Of a DNA stretch of 13,702 nt, positions 4,854-13,702 are shown piece by piece. The position numbers and the translations under genes are program-made. The DNA comes from Flavobacteriaceae bacterium (lineage in GTDB: Bacteria > Bacteroidota > Bacteroidia > Flavobacteriales > Flavobacteriaceae). The notes beneath the pieces are model-generated. The model did no database searches. It saw only the letters and a program-made list of their open reading frames with translations, and was not told the origin of the DNA. The first letter of the stretch is position 1. Every line of letters begins with the position of its first letter. The stretch spans positions 1-13,702 of the forward strand of contig NZQO01000050.1 of assembly GCA_002693605.1 (NCBI GenBank). Reading direction: 5' to 3'.

Positions 4854-6185
4854 TTATCGCTTTATGGAAACCTTCACCTGCTTGATTCGCTTATTGTCGA
4901 ACGCCTCTATGGTGAAAGAATATTGGTGAAACGGAATGACCTCGTTCTTCTTCGGAAATCCCTTCGATATTTCAAGCAAAAACCCCGCCAAGGTCTCTGC
5001 TTCTCCCTTTGCCGCCTCAAACGGCTGGACATCCATCAATTTTATGACCTTATAGAAATCCTTAAGGGGCGTTTTCCCCTCGAAAACGAAGGTGTCATCA
5101 TCCAACTTCGAGAAAATCAGGTCCTCGTCATCAAACTCGTCGCTAATTTCACCGACGATTTCCTCTATAATATCTTCGAGCGAAATGAGCCCGCTGGTAC
5201 CTCCGTACTCATCAACCACTATGGCTAGGTGCATCTTCATGTCCTTAAACTCATTGAGCAGATCGTCCAATTTCTTATTCTCCGGAACAAAGTAGGGCTT
5301 TCGCTTCAGCTCCTGCCAATCCAAGTTCTTGCGCTCTAGGTAGGGCATTAGGTCCTTCACGTACAAGATACCCGTAATATTGTCTATAGAGTCCTTAAAC
5401 ACGGGGATGCGGGAATACCCGTTGGTGATTATGGCCGGCATAATTTCGCGATAGTTCCAGTCTTCGTTCAGGGCAAAAATATCCATCCGGGGTCGCATTA
5501 CCTGTTTGGTGTCGGTATTCCCAAAGGTTACGATACCCTTCAGGATTTTCTGCTCCTCGTGGGTAGTGTCCGCTCCGGAGGTCAACTCGAGCGCCTGCGA
5601 AAGTTGATCGACGCTGATGTTCGATTTCTGCTTTCCGAAGCGATCCTGCATATAGATAGTCGTGGCCCGCATGGGCAAGCTAATAGGCGACAGGAACCAA
5701 TCTAGGGCGCGCAACGGATAGGCCATAAAAATTGCAAACTGCACCTTGTTCCTGCTCGCGTATATTTTAGGAAGGATCTCGCCGAAAAGCAATATGAGGA
5801 AAGTGGCAACTACAATCTTTACCAAAAAGAGCGAATCTACCTGAAACAGGTAGAAGTCGAGCACATAGTCTAATTGGTAGAACCACACGGTGCTCAGCGA
5901 CTCGAACAAGAGAACGATAGCTATGTTAATGGCGTTGTTGGCAACAAGGATCGTGGCCAGTAATTTTTTGGGACGCGTCAATAGGCGTTGCACCATTTCC
6001 AGCTTCTTCGCCTTCGGCGTTTCCTCGGAAATATCGAAATCGGTGCCAGTTAACGAAAAAAACGCCACCTCGGCGCCAGAGATCAATGCCGAGCAAAGCA
6101 AGAGCAAGAGCAATACAACGATGCTCGAAATATGCGCGACGTCCAGGAGAGCTAGTAAAAGTAAACTGGGAGGTTCTGTATCCAA
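4854..6185 (-). CDS. gldE: Gliding motility-associated protein GldE (CNNM/CBS/CorC-HlyC architecture)
   Basis: A 443-residue inner-membrane protein. Domain order: a DUF21/CNNM transmembrane region at about 15-180 with AEVAFFSL (38-45) and GEILPK (135-140); a CBS pair at about 225-345 with MRPRMDIFALN (230-240) and AIVVDEYGGTSGLISLEDI (321-339); and a C-terminal CorC/HlyC-type domain (about 360-440). This family includes Mg/Co efflux-linked proteins. In F. johnsoniae gldE sits next to gldD and has been linked to gliding by multicopy suppression; its exact role is unclear. The start is TTG at 6183-6185: it gives the expected N-terminus (D-T-E-P-P-S-L-L) and no ATG or GTG lies between it and the in-frame ssb stop 21 bp upstream. 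Confidence 0.93.
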   Translation of the reverse strand: MDTEPPSLLLLALLDVAHISSIVVLLLLLLCSALISGAEVAFFSLTGTDFDISEETPKAKKLEMVQRLLTRPKKLLATILVANNAINIAIVLLFESLSTVWFYQLDYVLDFYLFQVDSLFLVKIVVATFLILLFGEILPKIYASRNKVQFAIFMAYPLRALDWFLSPISLPMRATTIYMQDRFGKQKSNISVDQLSQALELTSGADTTHEEQKILKGIVTFGNTDTKQVMRPRMDIFALNEDWNYREIMPAIITNGYSRIPVFKDSIDNITGILYVKDLMPYLERKNLDWQELKRKPYFVPENKKLDDLLNEFKDMKMHLAIVVDEYGGTSGLISLEDIIEEIVGEISDEFDDEDLIFSKLDDDTFVFEGKTPLKDFYKVIKLMDVQPFEAAKGEAETLAGFLLEISKGFPKKNEVIPFHQYSFTIEAFDNKRIKQVKVSIKR

Positions 6186-8525: not shown

Positions 8526-10067
8526 GTGAGCTATGAATTATTCATAAGATCCGGTTCACAAGAAGTTGATTTTGCCCTTTTAAAAGATGGAAGACTCCTC
8601 GAGTTGCACAAGGAAGAAGAGGACAACAAGTTTACCGTTGGCGACGTATTTCTCGCCAAAATCAGGAAAACTGTCCCTGGCCTAAACGCCGCCTTTGTGA
8701 ACGTGGGCTACGAGAAAGATGCATTTTTGCACTACCACGACCTCGGCCCCAAAGTAACCTCCCTGCTAAAATTCGTGAAACGGGTTAGCACAGGCAAACT
8801 CAGAGAGTATTCGTTAAAAGATTTTCCTTTCGAAAAGGAGATTGATAAAAATGGAGGCATTAACAATGCCCTCAAGAACAATCAATCCATTTTGGTACAG
8901 ATCGTAAAGGAACCCATTTCCACCAAGGGACCGCGCATTAGCTCAGAGCTTTCCATAGCCGGGCGCTATATCGTACTGGTCCCGTTTTCAGACCGCGTTT
9001 CCATTTCACAGAAAATAGAATCGAAAGAAGAAAAGGAACGCCTAAAGCGCTTGATCATGAGCATTAGGCCCAAAGGATTTGGCGTTATTATTCGAACTGT
9101 AGCAGAGGGCAAAAAAGTAGCAGAACTGGATGGAGATTTACAAAATCTCATGGATCGCTGGACAGCGATGTGCAAAAAGCTACGAGGGGCGCACCACCCT
9201 AGCAAGGTGCTAAGCGAGCTAGACCGTGGAGCCTCGATTATACGAGATGTGTTCAATGACGATTTTTCGGCCATACACATCGATGACGAGACCCTCTACT
9301 TACAAATTAAGGATTATGTGCAGCAAATTGCACCCAAGAAAGAGAATATCGTAAAGCTCTACGACTCGAAAGTACCGATGTACGAGAAGTTCGGGATCGA
9401 GCGTCAAATTAAAACTTCGTTCGGAAAGACCGTTTCCGGCAGCAAGGGCACCTATTTGGTGATTGAGCATACCGAGGCCATGCACGTAATAGACGTGAAC
9501 AGTGGCAACCGTAGCAACAAATCAAAAAACCAAGAGGACACCGCGCTAGAGGTAAATATGATCGCTGCCACTGAAGTGGCAAGGCAATTACGATTACGCG
9601 ACATGGGCGGAATTATCGTGGTAGATTTCATTGATATGGGAAATGCCAACAACCGCAAAAAGCTCTACAACCACCTTCGCGACGAGATGAAGGACGACAG
9701 GGCCAAGCACAAGATATTGCCCCCAAGTAAATTTGGACTCATCCAAATAACCCGCCAACGCGTGCGGCCAGAAATGAACATCAAGACCCGGGAGGAAGCC
9801 CCTACCGGTGAAGATGGAGAAATAGAGGCACCCATTATCGTGGTGCAACGCATTACCGAAGAGCTAAAGCGGCTCTTCAAGAAGGACTATAAGAAACTTA
9901 CGTTAAGTACGCATCCTTTTATTGCGGCCTTCTTGGTGAAGGGCTTCCCCTCCGTACGAACCAAATGGTTCATGGAGCATAAAAAATGGGTCAAGATTCA
10001 GCCCAGGGACGCTTACACCTACCTTGAATATCATTTCTACGACAAGGACGGCGAAATGATAAAATAA
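8526..10067 (+). CDS. rng: Ribonuclease E/G family endoribonuclease
   Basis: Endonuclease for rRNA maturation and mRNA decay. The 513-residue length is close to RNase G and lacks RNase E's long scaffold tail. It has an S1 domain (about 36-130; VGDVFLAKIRKTVPGLNAAF) with an insertion around 75-118; a 5'-sensor/RNase H-like region (KEPISTKGPRISSELSIAGR); and the catalytic site with IDVNSG (Asp323) and VVDFIDM (Asp367/Asp370). After ITRQRVRPE (408-416), where E. coli enzymes carry the CPxC Zn-link, there is no cysteine pair; residues 420-437 are acidic instead. The start is GTG at 8526, preceded in frame by a stop with no other start codon between. It ends in a strong terminator. Confidence 0.95.
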   Translation: MSYELFIRSGSQEVDFALLKDGRLLELHKEEEDNKFTVGDVFLAKIRKTVPGLNAAFVNVGYEKDAFLHYHDLGPKVTSLLKFVKRVSTGKLREYSLKDFPFEKEIDKNGGINNALKNNQSILVQIVKEPISTKGPRISSELSIAGRYIVLVPFSDRVSISQKIESKEEKERLKRLIMSIRPKGFGVIIRTVAEGKKVAELDGDLQNLMDRWTAMCKKLRGAHHPSKVLSELDRGASIIRDVFNDDFSAIHIDDETLYLQIKDYVQQIAPKKENIVKLYDSKVPMYEKFGIERQIKTSFGKTVSGSKGTYLVIEHTEAMHVIDVNSGNRSNKSKNQEDTALEVNMIAATEVARQLRLRDMGGIIVVDFIDMGNANNRKKLYNHLRDEMKDDRAKHKILPPSKFGLIQITRQRVRPEMNIKTREEAPTGEDGEIEAPIIVVQRITEELKRLFKKDYKKLTLSTHPFIAAFLVKGFPSVRTKWFMEHKKWVKIQPRDAYTYLEYHFYDKDGEMIK

Positions 10068-10071
10068 TACT

Positions 10072-10110
10072 AAAACCCCTCCCACTATTTTTTTTGGAGG
10101 GGTTTTTTTT
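10072..10110 (+). terminator. Strong intrinsic terminator of rng
   Basis: AAAACCCCTCC (10072-10082) pairs perfectly with GGAGGGGTTTT (10096-10106) around a 13-nt T-rich loop, followed by T residues to 10110. It starts five bases after the rng stop and lies just before recX, so recX needs its own promoter, which I could not place. Confidence 0.93.
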
Positions 10111-10138
10111 ATGCCGAAATTTTAGCTATTTTCCCTAC

Positions 10139-10621
10139 GTGAACACCCATAAGACCTTTACCGTACAGGAGGCCACACTGCGAGTGGAGCGCTATTGCGC
10201 GTACCAGGAGCGCTGCCACAAGGAGGTAGCGCGCAAGCTGAAAGAGCTGCGCATGATCCCCGAAGCGGTAGACCATATACTGCACCACCTCATTACGCAC
10301 AATTTCCTGAACGAAACCCGCTTTGCACAGGCCTTCGCCCGCGGAAAATTCAAAAGTAAGCACTGGGGCAAAAACCGGATCGTGCGCGAGCTAAAACTAC
10401 GGGACATTTCTAAGTACAACATACAGCTAGCGCTAAAGGAAATTTCGGAACGCGATTATCTGCAAACCTTTGAAGAACTTTCCGAAAAACGCCTGCGGCA
10501 ACTGCATGGGGAGACCAACCTTCAGAAAAAAAGAAAGAAGCTGGCAGATTATCTCTTGTACAGAGGGTGGGAGAGCGAATTGGTCTATGAAAAAACCTAT
10601 TCTTTGTTCCCCGCAGTGTGA
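10139..10621 (+). CDS. recX: RecX family regulator of RecA, with a replaced 3' end
   Basis: RecX proteins bind and restrain RecA filaments. From GTG (10139) the product has 160 residues, in the usual range. It reads NTHKTFTVQEATLRVERYC, then CHKEVARKLKELRM, HNFLNETRFAQAFARGK, HWGKNRIVRELKLRDIS and YLLYRGWE, the repeated three-helix pattern of the family. An earlier in-frame TTG at 10094 lies inside the rng terminator and is rejected. Codons about 130-146 lie in a 50-bp sequence repeated at 11408-11457. The last 14 codons (ELVYEKTYSLFPAV) differ from the homologous end left at 11458-11505 (HLVYDVVSRLIPFSD). The present gene is thus a chimera whose end was probably supplied by the inserted unit; it still looks functional. 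Confidence 0.92.
   Translation: MNTHKTFTVQEATLRVERYCAYQERCHKEVARKLKELRMIPEAVDHILHHLITHNFLNETRFAQAFARGKFKSKHWGKNRIVRELKLRDISKYNIQLALKEISERDYLQTFEELSEKRLRQLHGETNLQKKRKKLADYLLYRGWESELVYEKTYSLFPAV
10527..10576 (+). repeat. Left 50-bp direct repeat (within recX)
   Basis: Identical over 50 bp to 11408-11457, at an offset of 881 bp. It encodes part of the RecX C-terminus (KKRKKLADYLLYRGWES). It includes the small imperfect palindrome CTCT-TGTAC-AGAG at 10553-10565, which could be a recombination core. Beyond its right end the two copies diverge to related but non-identical recX sequence. Confidence 0.97.
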
Positions 10622-10674
10622 TACAGCTTACACCTTTTCAAAAAATTTTTAACGTATATTTAACGCTTTCAATA

Positions 10675-10684
10675 CCCCCCCCCC
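10675..10684 (+). repeat. Homopolymeric C10 tract
   Basis: Ten consecutive cytosines in otherwise AT-rich DNA, 157 bp upstream of the lipoprotein gene. Such tracts slip easily and are used for phase variation in some bacteria; here it lies outside any convincing gene, so any effect would be on transcription or RNA structure. Confidence 0.95.
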
Positions 10685-10719
10685 GCTACAATTATTTAAT
10701 TTTACCATACTCCCCGTAC

Positions 10720-10768
10720 AAATTGGTTGCATTTATGGCCACGTGCACTACGCCGTTGCAGGCAATTT
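10720..10768. other. Imperfect hairpin, attC-like in outline
   Basis: AAATTG (10720-10725) pairs with CAATTT (10763-10768). After a G-G mismatch and a T-G wobble, TGCA (10728-10731) pairs with TGCA (10757-10760). After an asymmetric internal loop (5 nt against 2), GGC (10737-10739) pairs with GCC (10752-10754), with a 12-nt loop. Long imperfect palindromes with unpaired bases are typical of integron attC sites, but the consensus ends RYYYAAC/GTTRRRY are not present. It could equally be an RNA structure. Confidence 0.5.
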
Positions 10769-10840
10769 TATATTATTTCTCACATAGGCGTAAGCCGAAA
10801 AGCCTGTAACAGAGTAGGTGTTATTTTTTAATTTTATATT

Positions 10841-11344
10841 ATGAGAAATTACAGAATTGTGTTACCATTTATTGCTTTCCTATTATTCATATTTACAAGT
10901 TGTCAAAATGAAGAGATACAAAGCTTAGATTCGGATTCGATAGATTTAGTGATTCAAAAAAATGAAGACGCAAAAATCATTAACCAATTGCTTGCAGACG
11001 CAAAAGTAGATTTAGAAAATCAATCTCGAAATTTGAACGAGTTTCAAAACATTACTTTTGAGGTGGTAAAAAACCTTGAAACCAATGAGATAACCCTACA
11101 AAATTTTGAAGAAAAAAGTTTTTTTCCTATTGCTAGTAAAGAAAAATATCAATCTCGTTCCGGAGGATATCAAGTAGATTGTGACCTTGGTGGACCACCA
11201 AATGATTGGAGCGAAGAATGCTCTGGAAAGTGGAGTTGTGGTCAATTAATTGCAGACTGTCTAGACCAAGGTGGATGTGCCACAGTATGTGAAAGAAATC
11301 CTACTGGACAATTTGCCTCCGTATTAGTAACTTATATACCCTAA
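10841..11344 (+). CDS. Predicted lipoprotein with six-cysteine C-terminal domain, function unknown
   Basis: I do not recognise this 167-residue protein. Residues 1-20 form a lipoprotein signal and Cys21 the lipid anchor (LLFIFTSC). It is followed by QNEE, which resembles the acidic lipoprotein export signal that sends flavobacterial lipoproteins to the cell surface. Residues 24-105 are acidic and Asn/Gln-rich, probably helical. After SRSGG (105-109) comes a compact region with six cysteines, C114-x12-C127-x5-C133-x6-C140-x5-C146-x3-C150, including WSEECSGKWSCGQLIADC; three disulfides are likely outside the cytoplasm. Its codons are markedly AT-rich (AAA, GAT, TTA, ATT) compared with neighbours such as the cupin and bioB genes, consistent with acquisition by transfer. 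It has its own terminator. A role in competition, adhesion or binding is speculation. Confidence 0.85.
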   Translation: MRNYRIVLPFIAFLLFIFTSCQNEEIQSLDSDSIDLVIQKNEDAKIINQLLADAKVDLENQSRNLNEFQNITFEVVKNLETNEITLQNFEEKSFFPIASKEKYQSRSGGYQVDCDLGGPPNDWSEECSGKWSCGQLIADCLDQGGCATVCERNPTGQFASVLVTYIP

Positions 11345-11370
11345 TAAATAAAAAATAAACTGTAAACCTA

Positions 11371-11400
11371 AAAAGCCGTCTAAAAAAATAGGCGGCTTTT
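11371..11400 (+). terminator. Intrinsic terminator of the lipoprotein gene
   Basis: AAAAGCCGTCT (11371-11381) pairs with AGGCGGCTTTT (11390-11400), one pair being G-T, around an A-rich loop. It lies 27 bp after the stop and ends just before the right-hand direct repeat, so the cargo gene is insulated from the recX remnant. Confidence 0.85.
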
Positions 11401-11407
11401 ATATTGG

Positions 11408-11457
11408 AAAAAAGAAAGAAGCTGGCAGATTATCTCTTGTACAGAGGGTGGGAGAGC
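11408..11457 (+). repeat. Right 50-bp direct repeat (displaced recX end)
   Basis: Perfect copy of 10527-10576. It joins directly to the native-looking recX end at 11458-11505, while the sequence to its left is unrelated to recX. Confidence 0.97.
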
Positions 11458-11505
11458 CATTTGGTGTACGATGTTGTTTCGCGACTCATCCCTTTTTCAG
11501 ATTAA
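11408..11505 (+). pseudogene. recX: Displaced native 3' end of recX
   Basis: Read in the recX frame this stretch gives KKRKKLADYLLYRGWES, then HLVYDVVSRLIPFSD and a TAA stop (11503-11505), which is homologous to the end of RecX. It has no start codon, and the rest of the gene lies 881 bp upstream. Its stop overlaps the cupin stop on the opposite strand (shared TTAA at 11502-11505), as expected if recX and the cupin gene were originally convergent and abutting. That makes this copy the ancestral end and the one at 10577-10621 the newcomer. Confidence 0.85.
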
Positions 11506-12374
11506 TTGGAAGACCTTATCTTCAATTCGGCGTGGGTGCGCTGTATGGCTTTTTCATTCTTCCAATCGATCCATTCTTGCCCTTTTAGTCTTCGCATCAA
11601 GGTGTCGAAATGCCGCATCACAACTACATTATACACAGCCTTCGCCAAATTTTTCGGGTCGCGGGCCAGTGCTCTAAGGCTCATGGAGAATCCCGGGGTT
11701 AGGTACCGCATATAATGCCAATACCCCTCAGGCATATACAGCACGTGGCCATGCTCCAAATGGCCTACAAAACCAGTAGCTTTTTTGAGGGCAGGCCATT
11801 TTTCGTAATCGGGATCGTTGAAATCGATGTCCTCGCGTACAATGAGCGAATGCGGTATCTTGTACAGGTACTCGTTCTGCGACTGGTCAAAAAGGATGAC
11901 CTTTTTCTTTCCGTGGAAATGGAAATGGAATATGTTCGCCAAATCGATATCGTAATGCATAAAGGTATAGCTGTCCTTTCCGCCAAAAAACAGCATTGGC
12001 AACCCTTTCAGTAAGCGAAGGCCAAAATCGGGCCAACGGTAATCATCCTGCAACTGGGGCACTTCCTTCAAGATGTTCCAAAGGAAGATACGGTACTTGA
12101 TAGGCTCTTTCTTCAGCAGCTCGACATATTCGGCCATCTTCATTTTGGCGTGCGGCTCGTTGAATCCATCTTCATGGCTCACGGGCCTATTGTCGTATAG
12201 CGGTACGGTTTTATCGCCAGCCATCTCGGCCATATAGTCGAGATCCCATTTTTTGAAAGCGGGCCAGTCTTCTATGAACCGCTCGATAATGACCGGTTTC
12301 TGCGGCTTGAAATATTTATTTAAAAAATCTTCCTTCGTAATGGTTTGTACCCTATCTATTTCCTGTAACTGCAT
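11502..12374 (-). CDS. Cupin-like/JmjC-domain protein, probable Fe(II)/2-oxoglutarate dioxygenase
   Basis: A 290-residue cytosolic protein of the cupin_8/JmjC-like group, related in layout to FIH-type hydroxylases. The N-terminal part has the family phrase FKPQKPVIIERFIEDWPAFKKW (23-44, shown over its length). The double-stranded beta helix carries the metal-binding HxD as H140-Y-D142, then HFHFHGKKKVILFDQSQ with a candidate 2-oxoglutarate lysine, and the distal histidine H220 in MPEGYWHYM. The substrate is unknown; relatives hydroxylate proteins or small molecules. It is transcribed away from bioB after a 60-bp gap holding an exact -7 element, and it formerly converged on recX. The metal ligands all appear intact. 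Confidence 0.88.
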   Translation of the reverse strand: MQLQEIDRVQTITKEDFLNKYFKPQKPVIIERFIEDWPAFKKWDLDYMAEMAGDKTVPLYDNRPVSHEDGFNEPHAKMKMAEYVELLKKEPIKYRIFLWNILKEVPQLQDDYRWPDFGLRLLKGLPMLFFGGKDSYTFMHYDIDLANIFHFHFHGKKKVILFDQSQNEYLYKIPHSLIVREDIDFNDPDYEKWPALKKATGFVGHLEHGHVLYMPEGYWHYMRYLTPGFSMSLRALARDPKNLAKAVYNVVVMRHFDTLMRRLKGQEWIDWKNEKAIQRTHAELKIRSSN

Positions 12375-12391
12375 ACCTTAGCTGAATAGTT

Positions 12392-12419
12392 CAAAATTAC
12401 GAAACATCGCACAAACAAA
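12392..12419 (-). promoter_or_regulatory. Putative promoter of the cupin gene
   Basis: TAATTTTG (12392-12399, minus strand) matches TAnnTTTG exactly, 17 bp before the start codon; a TTTG (12416-12419) lies 16 nt further upstream, slightly closer than usual. The gene may therefore be transcribed separately from bioB as well as by read-through. Confidence 0.5.
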
Positions 12420-12434
12420 TTCGCAAAGCAGGAT

Positions 12435-13532
12435 TTACTTTGAGGAGGGCCTAGCCTTGGCCTTGGCCTCTTCGTTGCGCACGATGGTATGGCCGGGGCG
12501 TGTCCATTTTGGTTTTTCGCCCTGTGCTTGATAGGCCGAGTACTGCGCCTCTACGGTTTCGGGCTGGGCCTTTTTTACGAAAGGCTTCATAGGTTGTAGT
12601 CCTAACAACTGGAACATTTCCATATCTTCGTTCACATCGGGGTTGGGCGTGGTTAAGAGCTTATCGCCGGCAAAGATGCTATTGGCACCCGCAAAGAAGC
12701 ACATGGCCTGACCCTCGCGGCTCATTCCGGTGCGACCTGCGGATAGACGCACTTGGGTTTGCGGCATCACAATGCGGGTGGTGGCCACCATTCGAATCAT
12801 TTCCCAGATGGAAACGGGCTCCACGTCTTCCATAGGGGTGCCTTCAACGGCTACAAGGGCGTTAATGGGAACGCTCTCCGGCTGCGGATTCAACGATGCG
12901 AGCGCCACGAGCATTCCGGCACGGTCCTCGAGTTTTTCCCCCATTCCTATAATTCCGCCACTGCAAACCGTAACGTTGGTTTTTCGAACGTTGCCTATGG
13001 TATCCAATCGATCTTGGTAGGCCCGGGTAGAGATTACATCCTTGTAATAATCTTCGGAAGTATCCAGGTTATGGTTGTAGGCGTAGAGGCCGGCCTCTGC
13101 CAGGCGTTTGGCCTGGTTTTCGGTAATCATCCCCAGCGTACAACATACTTCCATATCGAGTTTGTTAATGGTTCGCACCATTTCCAGCACCTGGTCAAAT
13201 TCTGCGCCATCTTTCACGTTTCGCCACGCCGCCCCCATACACACGCGCGAACTGCCGGAGGCCTTTGCCCGCAACGCTTGGGCCTTTACCTGTGGTACGC
13301 TCATTAAATCATTGCCCTCAATATCGGTATGGTAGCGCGCCGCTTGTGGGCAGTAGCCGCAATCTTCGGGACAGCCGCCCGTTTTAATGGATAACAGCGT
13401 TGAAACCTGAACTTGGTTGGGGTCGTGATTTTGCCTATGTACCGACGCCGCTTCGTAAAGCAGTTCCATAAGCGGTTTGTTGTAGATGTTTAAAATTTCT
13501 TCCTTGGTCCAAGTGTGCTTGATACTGTCCAT
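12435..13532 (-). CDS. bioB: Biotin synthase
   Basis: Radical SAM enzyme that inserts sulfur into dethiobiotin in the last step of biotin synthesis. The 365 residues fit the family. The [4Fe-4S] motif is C54-x3-C58-x2-C61 in GGCPEDCGYCPQ. The [2Fe-2S] ligands are Cys98, Cys130 and Cys190 with Arg262 (VRLSAGR), matching Cys97, Cys128, Cys188 and Arg260 of E. coli. Other hallmarks are YNHNLDTS (152-159), CSGGIIGMGE (190-199) and FFAGANSIF (279-287). The C-terminus has a charged, Lys/Ala-rich tail of about 25 residues. No other bio gene lies within the window, so it may stand alone or lead a unit with the cupin gene. Confidence 0.98.
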   Translation of the reverse strand: MDSIKHTWTKEEILNIYNKPLMELLYEAASVHRQNHDPNQVQVSTLLSIKTGGCPEDCGYCPQAARYHTDIEGNDLMSVPQVKAQALRAKASGSSRVCMGAAWRNVKDGAEFDQVLEMVRTINKLDMEVCCTLGMITENQAKRLAEAGLYAYNHNLDTSEDYYKDVISTRAYQDRLDTIGNVRKTNVTVCSGGIIGMGEKLEDRAGMLVALASLNPQPESVPINALVAVEGTPMEDVEPVSIWEMIRMVATTRIVMPQTQVRLSAGRTGMSREGQAMCFFAGANSIFAGDKLLTTPNPDVNEDMEMFQLLGLQPMKPFVKKAQPETVEAQYSAYQAQGEKPKWTRPGHTIVRNEEAKAKARPSSK

Positions 13533-13571
13533 AGCAGATTTTTAGGCGGAAAACTCCAGACAAGAGAATAT

Positions 13572-13597
13572 CCTATTTTCAGAAACCCAAAAATAGG
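13572..13597 (-). promoter_or_regulatory. bioB promoter element overlapped by an inverted repeat
   Basis: TATTTTTG (13588-13595, minus strand) matches TAnnTTTG exactly, 55 bp before the bioB ATG. It lies in the arm of an 8-bp inverted repeat, CCTATTTT (13572-13579) and AAAATAGG (13590-13597), with a 10-nt spacer, a layout suited to a repressor site. It does not resemble the BirA operator patterns I know. No clear -33 TTTG is present. Confidence 0.45.
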
Positions 13598-13702
13598 GAA
13601 AAAACGAACAATTGATGGCTGAATTTTCTAAATGGGCCAAAACCAAATTTTAGCTCATTTTCTATGTAATTATATTCTAGCGAAAATCTATGCACTTTCC
13701 AA
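13598..13702. other. AT-rich intergenic DNA at the right edge
   Basis: About 105 bp upstream of the bioB promoter. I see no coding frame of note, hairpin or promoter consensus here; it probably separates bioB from a gene outside the window. Confidence 0.6.

Follow-up and report, generated by a model that had tools for sequence, protein, structure and literature searches.

A lipoprotein gene between two different recX 3′ ends in a Flavobacteriaceae genome

Architecture of the recX locus

The analyzed window is one whole contig (C51) of 13,702 nucleotides from the assembly of a Flavobacteriaceae bacterium, which comprises 2.19 Mb in 161 contigs and is 68% complete. Among the 397 genomes of this family that were searched, the genus is represented by this one genome. 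The following features could be annotated at the recX locus:

10139..10621, + strand: complete recX gene of 160 aa with a GTG start and the putative newcomer 3′ end (Pfam RecX_HTH2 and RecX_HTH3 above their cut-offs)
10527..10576, + strand: left copy of the 50-bp core, within recX (repeat comparison)
10577..10621, + strand: left recX tail, ELVYEKTYSLFPAV, and stop (sequence comparison)
10785..10820, + strand: DUF805b leader RNA (Rfam RF02914, cis-regulatory), 20 nt before the lipoprotein start (47 bits vs. a gathering cut-off of 35.6)
10841..11344, + strand: lipoprotein gene of 167 aa, the sole cargo gene, with the lipobox cysteine at position 21 by eye (ORF list)
11371..11400, + strand: terminator-like hairpin after the cargo gene (-16.7 kcal/mol, z -4.6)
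11408..11457, + strand: right, displaced copy of the 50-bp core (repeat comparison)
11458..11504, + strand: displaced recX tail, HLVYDVVSRLIPFSD, and stop; its protein equals the end of the RecX protein P0011 (protein comparison)
11502..12374, - strand: convergent Cupin_8 gene on the right flank, with a stop overlapping the displaced recX stop (ORF list, Pfam)

The original prediction had described perfect 50-bp repeats 881 bp apart that are followed by diverged recX ends, and both observations could be confirmed. Positions 10527-10576 and 11408-11457 are identical over the full 50 bp, with a start-to-start distance of 881 bp. The match extends by 0 bp to the left, where the 40 upstream bases agree at 12/40 positions, and no recX sequence is present upstream of the right copy. 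On the 3′ side the tails diverge (SELVYEKTYSLFPAV on the left, SHLVYDVVSRLIPFSD on the right), with 10/21 and then 6/24 identical bases (16/45 overall), and the predicted synonymous GTC/GTG and TAT/TAC differences are present between the two recX ends. The left protein end reads ...RGWESELVYEKTYSLFPAV and stop, the right one ...RGWESHLVYDVVSRLIPFSD and stop. The right recX piece consists of the displaced end only and completes no gene; its overlap with the cupin stop is the arrangement also seen in relatives that have no DNA between recX and cupin.

The core is the only direct-repeat family of at least 20 nt in positions 9000-13702. The search for other core copies that had been proposed with the original prediction gave this locus alone when the own genome was searched with positions 10480-11520, and the core is absent from 20 further stretches of this genome (259 kb). 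In a control for flanking direct repeats of 25-150 bp, 1/320 points in 48 loci was positive, and this point is located inside a repetitive gene of 1609 aa. The 50-bp flanking repeat is not a chance occurrence.

Between the repeats, the ORF list and Pfam confirm the predicted content of one accessory lipoprotein gene and no recombinase gene, the cargo being without a Pfam family. The stretch from the lipoprotein gene to the displaced core does not wholly contain another ORF of at least 60 aa. The G + C content of the cargo is 0.34 compared with 0.46 for the window. An inverted-repeat pair of at least 20 nt, the mark of an insertion sequence or MITE, was not found at the two ends of the unit, and the duplication amounts to 50 bp. 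The hairpin at 11371-11400 was not listed by a terminator consensus scan.

The C-terminal part of the lipoprotein is cysteine-rich. The protein has no Pfam or PHROG match and no usable solved-structure match; NCBIfam and PADLOC revealed weak partial matches only (e.g., PbeA, E 0.00019, 86/722 positions), and the structure model is poor (mean pLDDT 69, pTM 0.44). The protein search resulted in nine proteins including the lipoprotein itself, the nearest being that of Rasiella sp. SM2506 (84%). The RecX of Rasiella rasia, another species, matches the window RecX at 76%. Upstream of the lipoprotein gene lies a run of ten C (10675-10684), the only run of at least seven C/G or at least nine A/T in the window, which may either allow slippage (phase variation) or represent an assembly risk.

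The leader is the only DUF805b match in its own genome and the only Rfam match in the window. In the family, DUF805b (RF02914) was detected in 229/397 genomes at E ≤ 0.001, in 168 of them above the cut-off. Individual genomes have up to 16 matches, a number that coincides with the per-genome scoring limit. The ORF starts 53-62 nt after the first base of DUF805b in 24/29 other loci and 57 nt after it in the window, and many of the ORFs led by DUF805b appear by eye to encode short secreted proteins, lipoproteins or proteins with double-glycine-like leaders. DUF805b thus seems to precede genes for small exported products as a leader at a fixed distance; none of the literature matches listed names it. 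A role of DUF805b as a mark of cassettes could not be supported. Short flanking repeats are present at 2/29 other loci vs. 1/320 controls (Fisher p 0.019), and one of these two loci (in G033) is a multi-copy repeat array. In this array, a 32-34 bp repeat (L216 855-888, 3125-3158 and 3984-4015) is located between small unrelated genes and within longer imperfect repeats, and one unit has a DUF805b leader. The array may be integron-like or a toxin/immunity array.

The recX 3′ end in relatives

Among the matches listed in the protein search, the named relatives of the window recX belong mostly to the Flavobacteriaceae. Around recX, 45 loci of relatives were compared, corresponding to 44 distinct ones, as L004 and L033 have identical DNA. 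All relatives sharing the same two recX ends would have spoken against the original prediction; a second recX end was found in 0/45 loci. Empty sites, by contrast, could be identified in 17/45 loci, where the cupin end lies at most 100 bp from the recX stop. Another 15/45 loci have other intervals of 219-3478 bp between recX and cupin, and 13/45 have no cupin within the compared stretch. Judging from the empty relatives, the right end occupies the usual position of the recX end and the left end would have arrived with the insert. DNA identity to the relatives over the core region has a mean of 71% and a maximum of 82% (45 loci), compared with 100% between the own two cores. This suggests that the core itself was the site of a crossover, a target duplication or a conversion.

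Evidence on the origin of the two ends was obtained at the protein level. The window RecX was searched against about 5.8 billion proteins; 8,000 candidates were scored, of which 539 reached E ≤ 1e-60, and the best 120 of these were compared. The best match after the window's own cluster is P0011, a JGI metagenome protein of 161 aa. Its last 16 residues equal the displaced end (16/16), and its body is 79.4% (0.794) identical to the window RecX over 107 residues with the core excluded, which is no higher than for four others among the matches listed. For a control of tail against body identity, 95 of the best 120 proteins were used, and 25 were dropped because the body differed in length or the anchor was missing. 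Pairs with a body identity below 0.80 (n = 3,518) have a mean tail identity of about 0.4 and a maximum of 0.85, with 0 pairs at 0.9 or above. Tails of at least 0.9 occur in 5/477 pairs with bodies of 0.80-0.85 and in 4/353 pairs with bodies of 0.85-0.90, with a maximum of 0.92, and a tail identity of 1.00 occurs only with bodies of at least 0.9. The tail is the fast-changing part of RecX.

Since the tail of P0011 matches at 16/16 despite a body of 0.794, the displaced end is assigned to a different allele from that of the recX body and left end. This bears out the earlier claim of foreign DNA carrying its own recX end, as opposed to a tandem duplication. The displaced end appears to exist on a complete gene elsewhere, which at the protein level would amount to an empty-site allele. 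P0011 is known as a protein only, and its longest contig is 74,699 bp. No cupin with a longest contig of 74,699 bp is among the 120 listed of 4,376; as a weak hint, the cupin neighbor of P0011 may be within the 90% cluster of the window cupin, which has 3 members vs. 2 for recX.

The original prediction had also considered a class of recX-targeted mini-cassettes, and this part could not be supported. A recX match was present in 384 of the 397 family genomes at E ≤ 0.001, and a partial second recX end was found at this threshold in 1/397, namely the own genome. With a profile of 45 positions of the recX end, at least two matches were obtained at E ≤ 0.5 in 116 genomes (own included, counted from the table), and the extra matches are fewer than the approximately 200 allowed by chance. 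After 80 of the 116 had been rechecked at E ≤ 0.03, weak second matches persisted in five genomes in addition to that in the own genome (G018, G038, G114, G167, G281); the best of them (G018, 3e-4) is a reading frame that is interrupted by stops and located within another gene. Within the sensitivity of these searches, the recX end was found neither in phages or plasmids (tblastn, 34 residues) nor in viral contigs (degenerate patterns), and viral contigs contained no relatives of the lipoprotein or of P0011.

Elements at the recX end are absent among the literature matches listed. Where the listed literature mentions recX, the cited passages concern a pyocin located upstream of cinA-recA-recX, an IME in the vicinity of recX-recA-lexA, and recA carrying an insertion. 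One of the other 36 genomes with at least two profile matches (G342, L128/L129; G342:C5:220092-221367) was examined separately and contains two equal-scoring recX in tandem, 832 bp apart, which are either a real duplication or an assembly artefact.

Lipoprotein relatives and displaced comM ends

Matches to a profile of the lipoprotein, mostly weak, were found in 23/397 family genomes (own included), and the surroundings of nine other loci with homologs were examined. In one of these (G266, L084), the homolog and a second lipoprotein gene are located between two comM 3′ ends. The two copies of the comM end are 57 bp long and 89.5% identical, with a spacing of 1276 bp (right copy at L084 5673-5729), and the displaced comM end abuts a convergent gene, as at recX. 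The sequences of the recX and comM repeats are unrelated. No gene-end copy was found in the other eight loci, save for paralogous lipoproteins that resemble each other; such paralogs in L083, L084 and L085 have a mutual resemblance of 43-53%.

A protein test for gene ends was positive for 1/80 ORFs in the nine lipoprotein loci vs. 0/397 ORFs in control loci of 427 kb. Short flanking repeats were present at 2/9 lipoprotein loci (L081 and L084) vs. 1/320 controls (p 0.002), an enrichment that is weakened by a third partial copy 3 kb off in L081, by the comM hotspot and by controls taken from other genomes. In L081 (G079), a 46-bp repeat (4952-4997 and 5590-5635) flanks the lipoprotein homolog as a unit of 638 bp, and its third, partial copy lies at 8710-8745. 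An integrase remnant seen by eye beside the homolog of G045 (L083) was not confirmed by Pfam or PDB.

The genus of G266 comprises 23 genomes, and 5/19 of its comM loci contain a displaced comM end (31-104 bp), each behind different cargo; the protein test recovers 3/19, the remaining two of the five resting on the DNA test. In some other loci of this genus, comM is directly followed by the next conserved gene. Among 18 tested ORFs from the five comM intervals no recombinase family was found, and 8/18 matched nothing. Decay is visible in the displaced comM ends of G403 and G045 (internal deletion, frameshift). Gene turnover in these 23 genomes has a hotspot on the 3′ side of comM (L132-L149, L122, L123); the displaced comM ends of G400 and G416 lie in a common sequence of about 165 bp, and the two genomes differ in cargo. 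Furthermore, comM is split near codon 280 in G412 (L126) and G406 (L127). The inserts measure about 12 and 15 kb, and their ORFs of 589 and 571 aa look by eye like large serine recombinases.

Origin of the insertion and comparison with known systems

We favor reading the recX locus as a recombination scar, left when the 3′ end of recX received a single-gene unit. That the insertion took place by homologous or short-homology recombination between recX alleles, without a dedicated recombinase, is given a slightly better than even chance. Incoming DNA from a related flavobacterium, in which a recX allele was followed by the lipoprotein gene, may have entered by homologous recombination in recX; the conserved core, or its A-run, would be the place where its other end was linked to the resident recX. 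This joining would be transformation-like, an ‘insertion with target duplication’ without a dedicated recombinase, after which the core may have undergone exchange or conversion; identical cores might alternatively stem from the transfer of an already duplicated arrangement. The former recX end would have been pushed 881 bp downstream, no longer completing a gene, and the added unit would comprise the recX end, leader RNA, lipoprotein gene and hairpin, with the cargo then kept or lost through ordinary recombination.

Because the two recX pieces belong to different alleles, the locus fits homologous recombination rather than a bare att site. Allele import explains the mismatch of body and tail, the missing recombinase and the empty relatives (17/45). 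It is further supported by the lipoprotein family being located between duplicated comM ends in G266 as well, and by the lipoprotein being 84% identical to that of Rasiella sp. SM2506 when RecX reaches 76% with Rasiella rasia. The import is weakened by the P0011 body of 0.794, as this value adjoins the 0.80-0.85 bin with tails of up to 0.92 (none at 1.00), and by the eight of nine lipoprotein loci without a gene-end copy. It also needs an extra conversion or crossover step, since the core is 100% identical and about 71% is expected for alleles this different. From the original idea of recombination at a gene end, the foreign end is retained. The P0011 mismatch speaks for an exchange of alleles through homologous recombination and not for a small att site alone.

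Site-specific integration is classically recognized by a restored gene end and an identical, sharply bordered core. On this reading, the attP of the element would contain the 50-bp core plus a substitute 3′ end of recX, and a tyrosine recombinase acting in trans would have crossed over within the core, which directly explains the core identity of 100%. A candidate enzyme elsewhere in the genome, as the original prediction had asked for, could be provided by any of eight Pfam Phage_integrase matches, all above the cut-off, in this only 68% complete genome. This explanation deserves serious consideration, but is rated as rather unlikely: neither the unit nor the 18 comM-interval ORFs contain a recombinase family, the recX and comM repeats are unrelated, searches of phages, plasmids and viral contigs did not reveal the recX end, 0/396 other family genomes contain a partial second recX end (E ≤ 0.001), and the displaced end is of a lineage that the recX body does not fit.

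The decay of a larger, integrase-bearing recX island to one gene between its att sites is improbable. Scars do decay, as the eroding comM ends in G403 and G045 demonstrate, and the own genome is incomplete; at recX, however, the core is still perfect over 50 bp, leader, ORF and hairpin are intact, and from the lipoprotein gene to the displaced core there is no room taken by a further whole ORF of at least 60 aa. A similarly low probability is assigned to an assembly or strain chimera, in which two recX contigs were joined at the core. A 50-bp exact repeat in a metagenome-type contig is a classic joining point and the two ends belong to different alleles, but the cargo runs directly into the recX core at 11408, a duplication that was not made by the join. 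Moreover, the RecX, lipoprotein and cupin proteins of the window each occur in 3 contigs (longest 29,681 bp), and these counts suggest a second assembly with the same gene order. Tandem duplication of the recX end and subsequent drift would account for direct repeats flanking the insert, but is very improbable and was rejected, because drift would not leave 50/50 beside 16/45, the displaced tail equals the RecX end of another lineage (P0011), and no source is given for a gene with homologs elsewhere.

Under the favored allele recombination, the locus is a small, clean case of an accessory gene added beside a core gene, which is left unbroken, without mobile-element machinery. Quite tentatively, and with considerable doubt, it can be proposed that Flavobacteriaceae carry a class of recombinase-free cassettes, each a single transcription unit, for secreted lipoproteins, which spread through replacement of the 3′ ends of conserved genes (recX; comM in G266). 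Each cassette would bring a homologous gene end by which ordinary recombination could install it and leave the gene unbroken. The comM parallel raises the testable question whether displaced gene ends are marks of recombinase-free insertions.

Insertion with long target duplication was reportedly described by Nobusato et al. in 2000. The exact combination of a foreign gene end and one small gene is absent among the literature matches listed, and the following systems come near to it in parts. Restriction-modification genes flanked by target repeats have been described as insertions with long target duplication (PMC3031569, PMC4978471, PMC3154945). According to the cited passages, they likewise form a gene unit between long direct target repeats without an own recombinase. 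Their cargo is restriction-modification genes and not one lipoprotein gene, and in the window the cores are identical whereas the tails represent two alleles of the target gene.

Among gene-end islands, SGI1 is integrated at the 3′ end of trmE and other elements at yicC and dusA, where incoming DNA restores the reading frame of dusA (PMC8409611). Like these elements, as far as the cited passages describe them, the unit is inserted at the end of a conserved gene and the gene end is restored (dusA there, recX here). The repeat lies inside the 3′ end of the target, and the native end is displaced, as in integrative elements at gene 3′ ends; the integrase that such elements encode is missing. In contrast to their integrase-mediated integration and excision, the unit consists of 881 bp with one gene and no integrase. 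In Vibrio parahaemolyticus, an insertion in recA leaves a truncated RecA (PMC4334540). There, too, a repair gene of the recA-recX neighborhood is interrupted by foreign DNA and a truncated native piece is left, but the insert, in the cited passages, contains a phage-family integrase and several genes.

Finally, hotspots without integrases, at which the flanking core genes recombine, are documented (PMC5635113). The gene-end duplication seen at recX is not part of the cited description, yet the cited passages and the window have in common that accessory DNA is placed between core genes, that relatives contain different cargo or none at all, and that the flank is mosaic.
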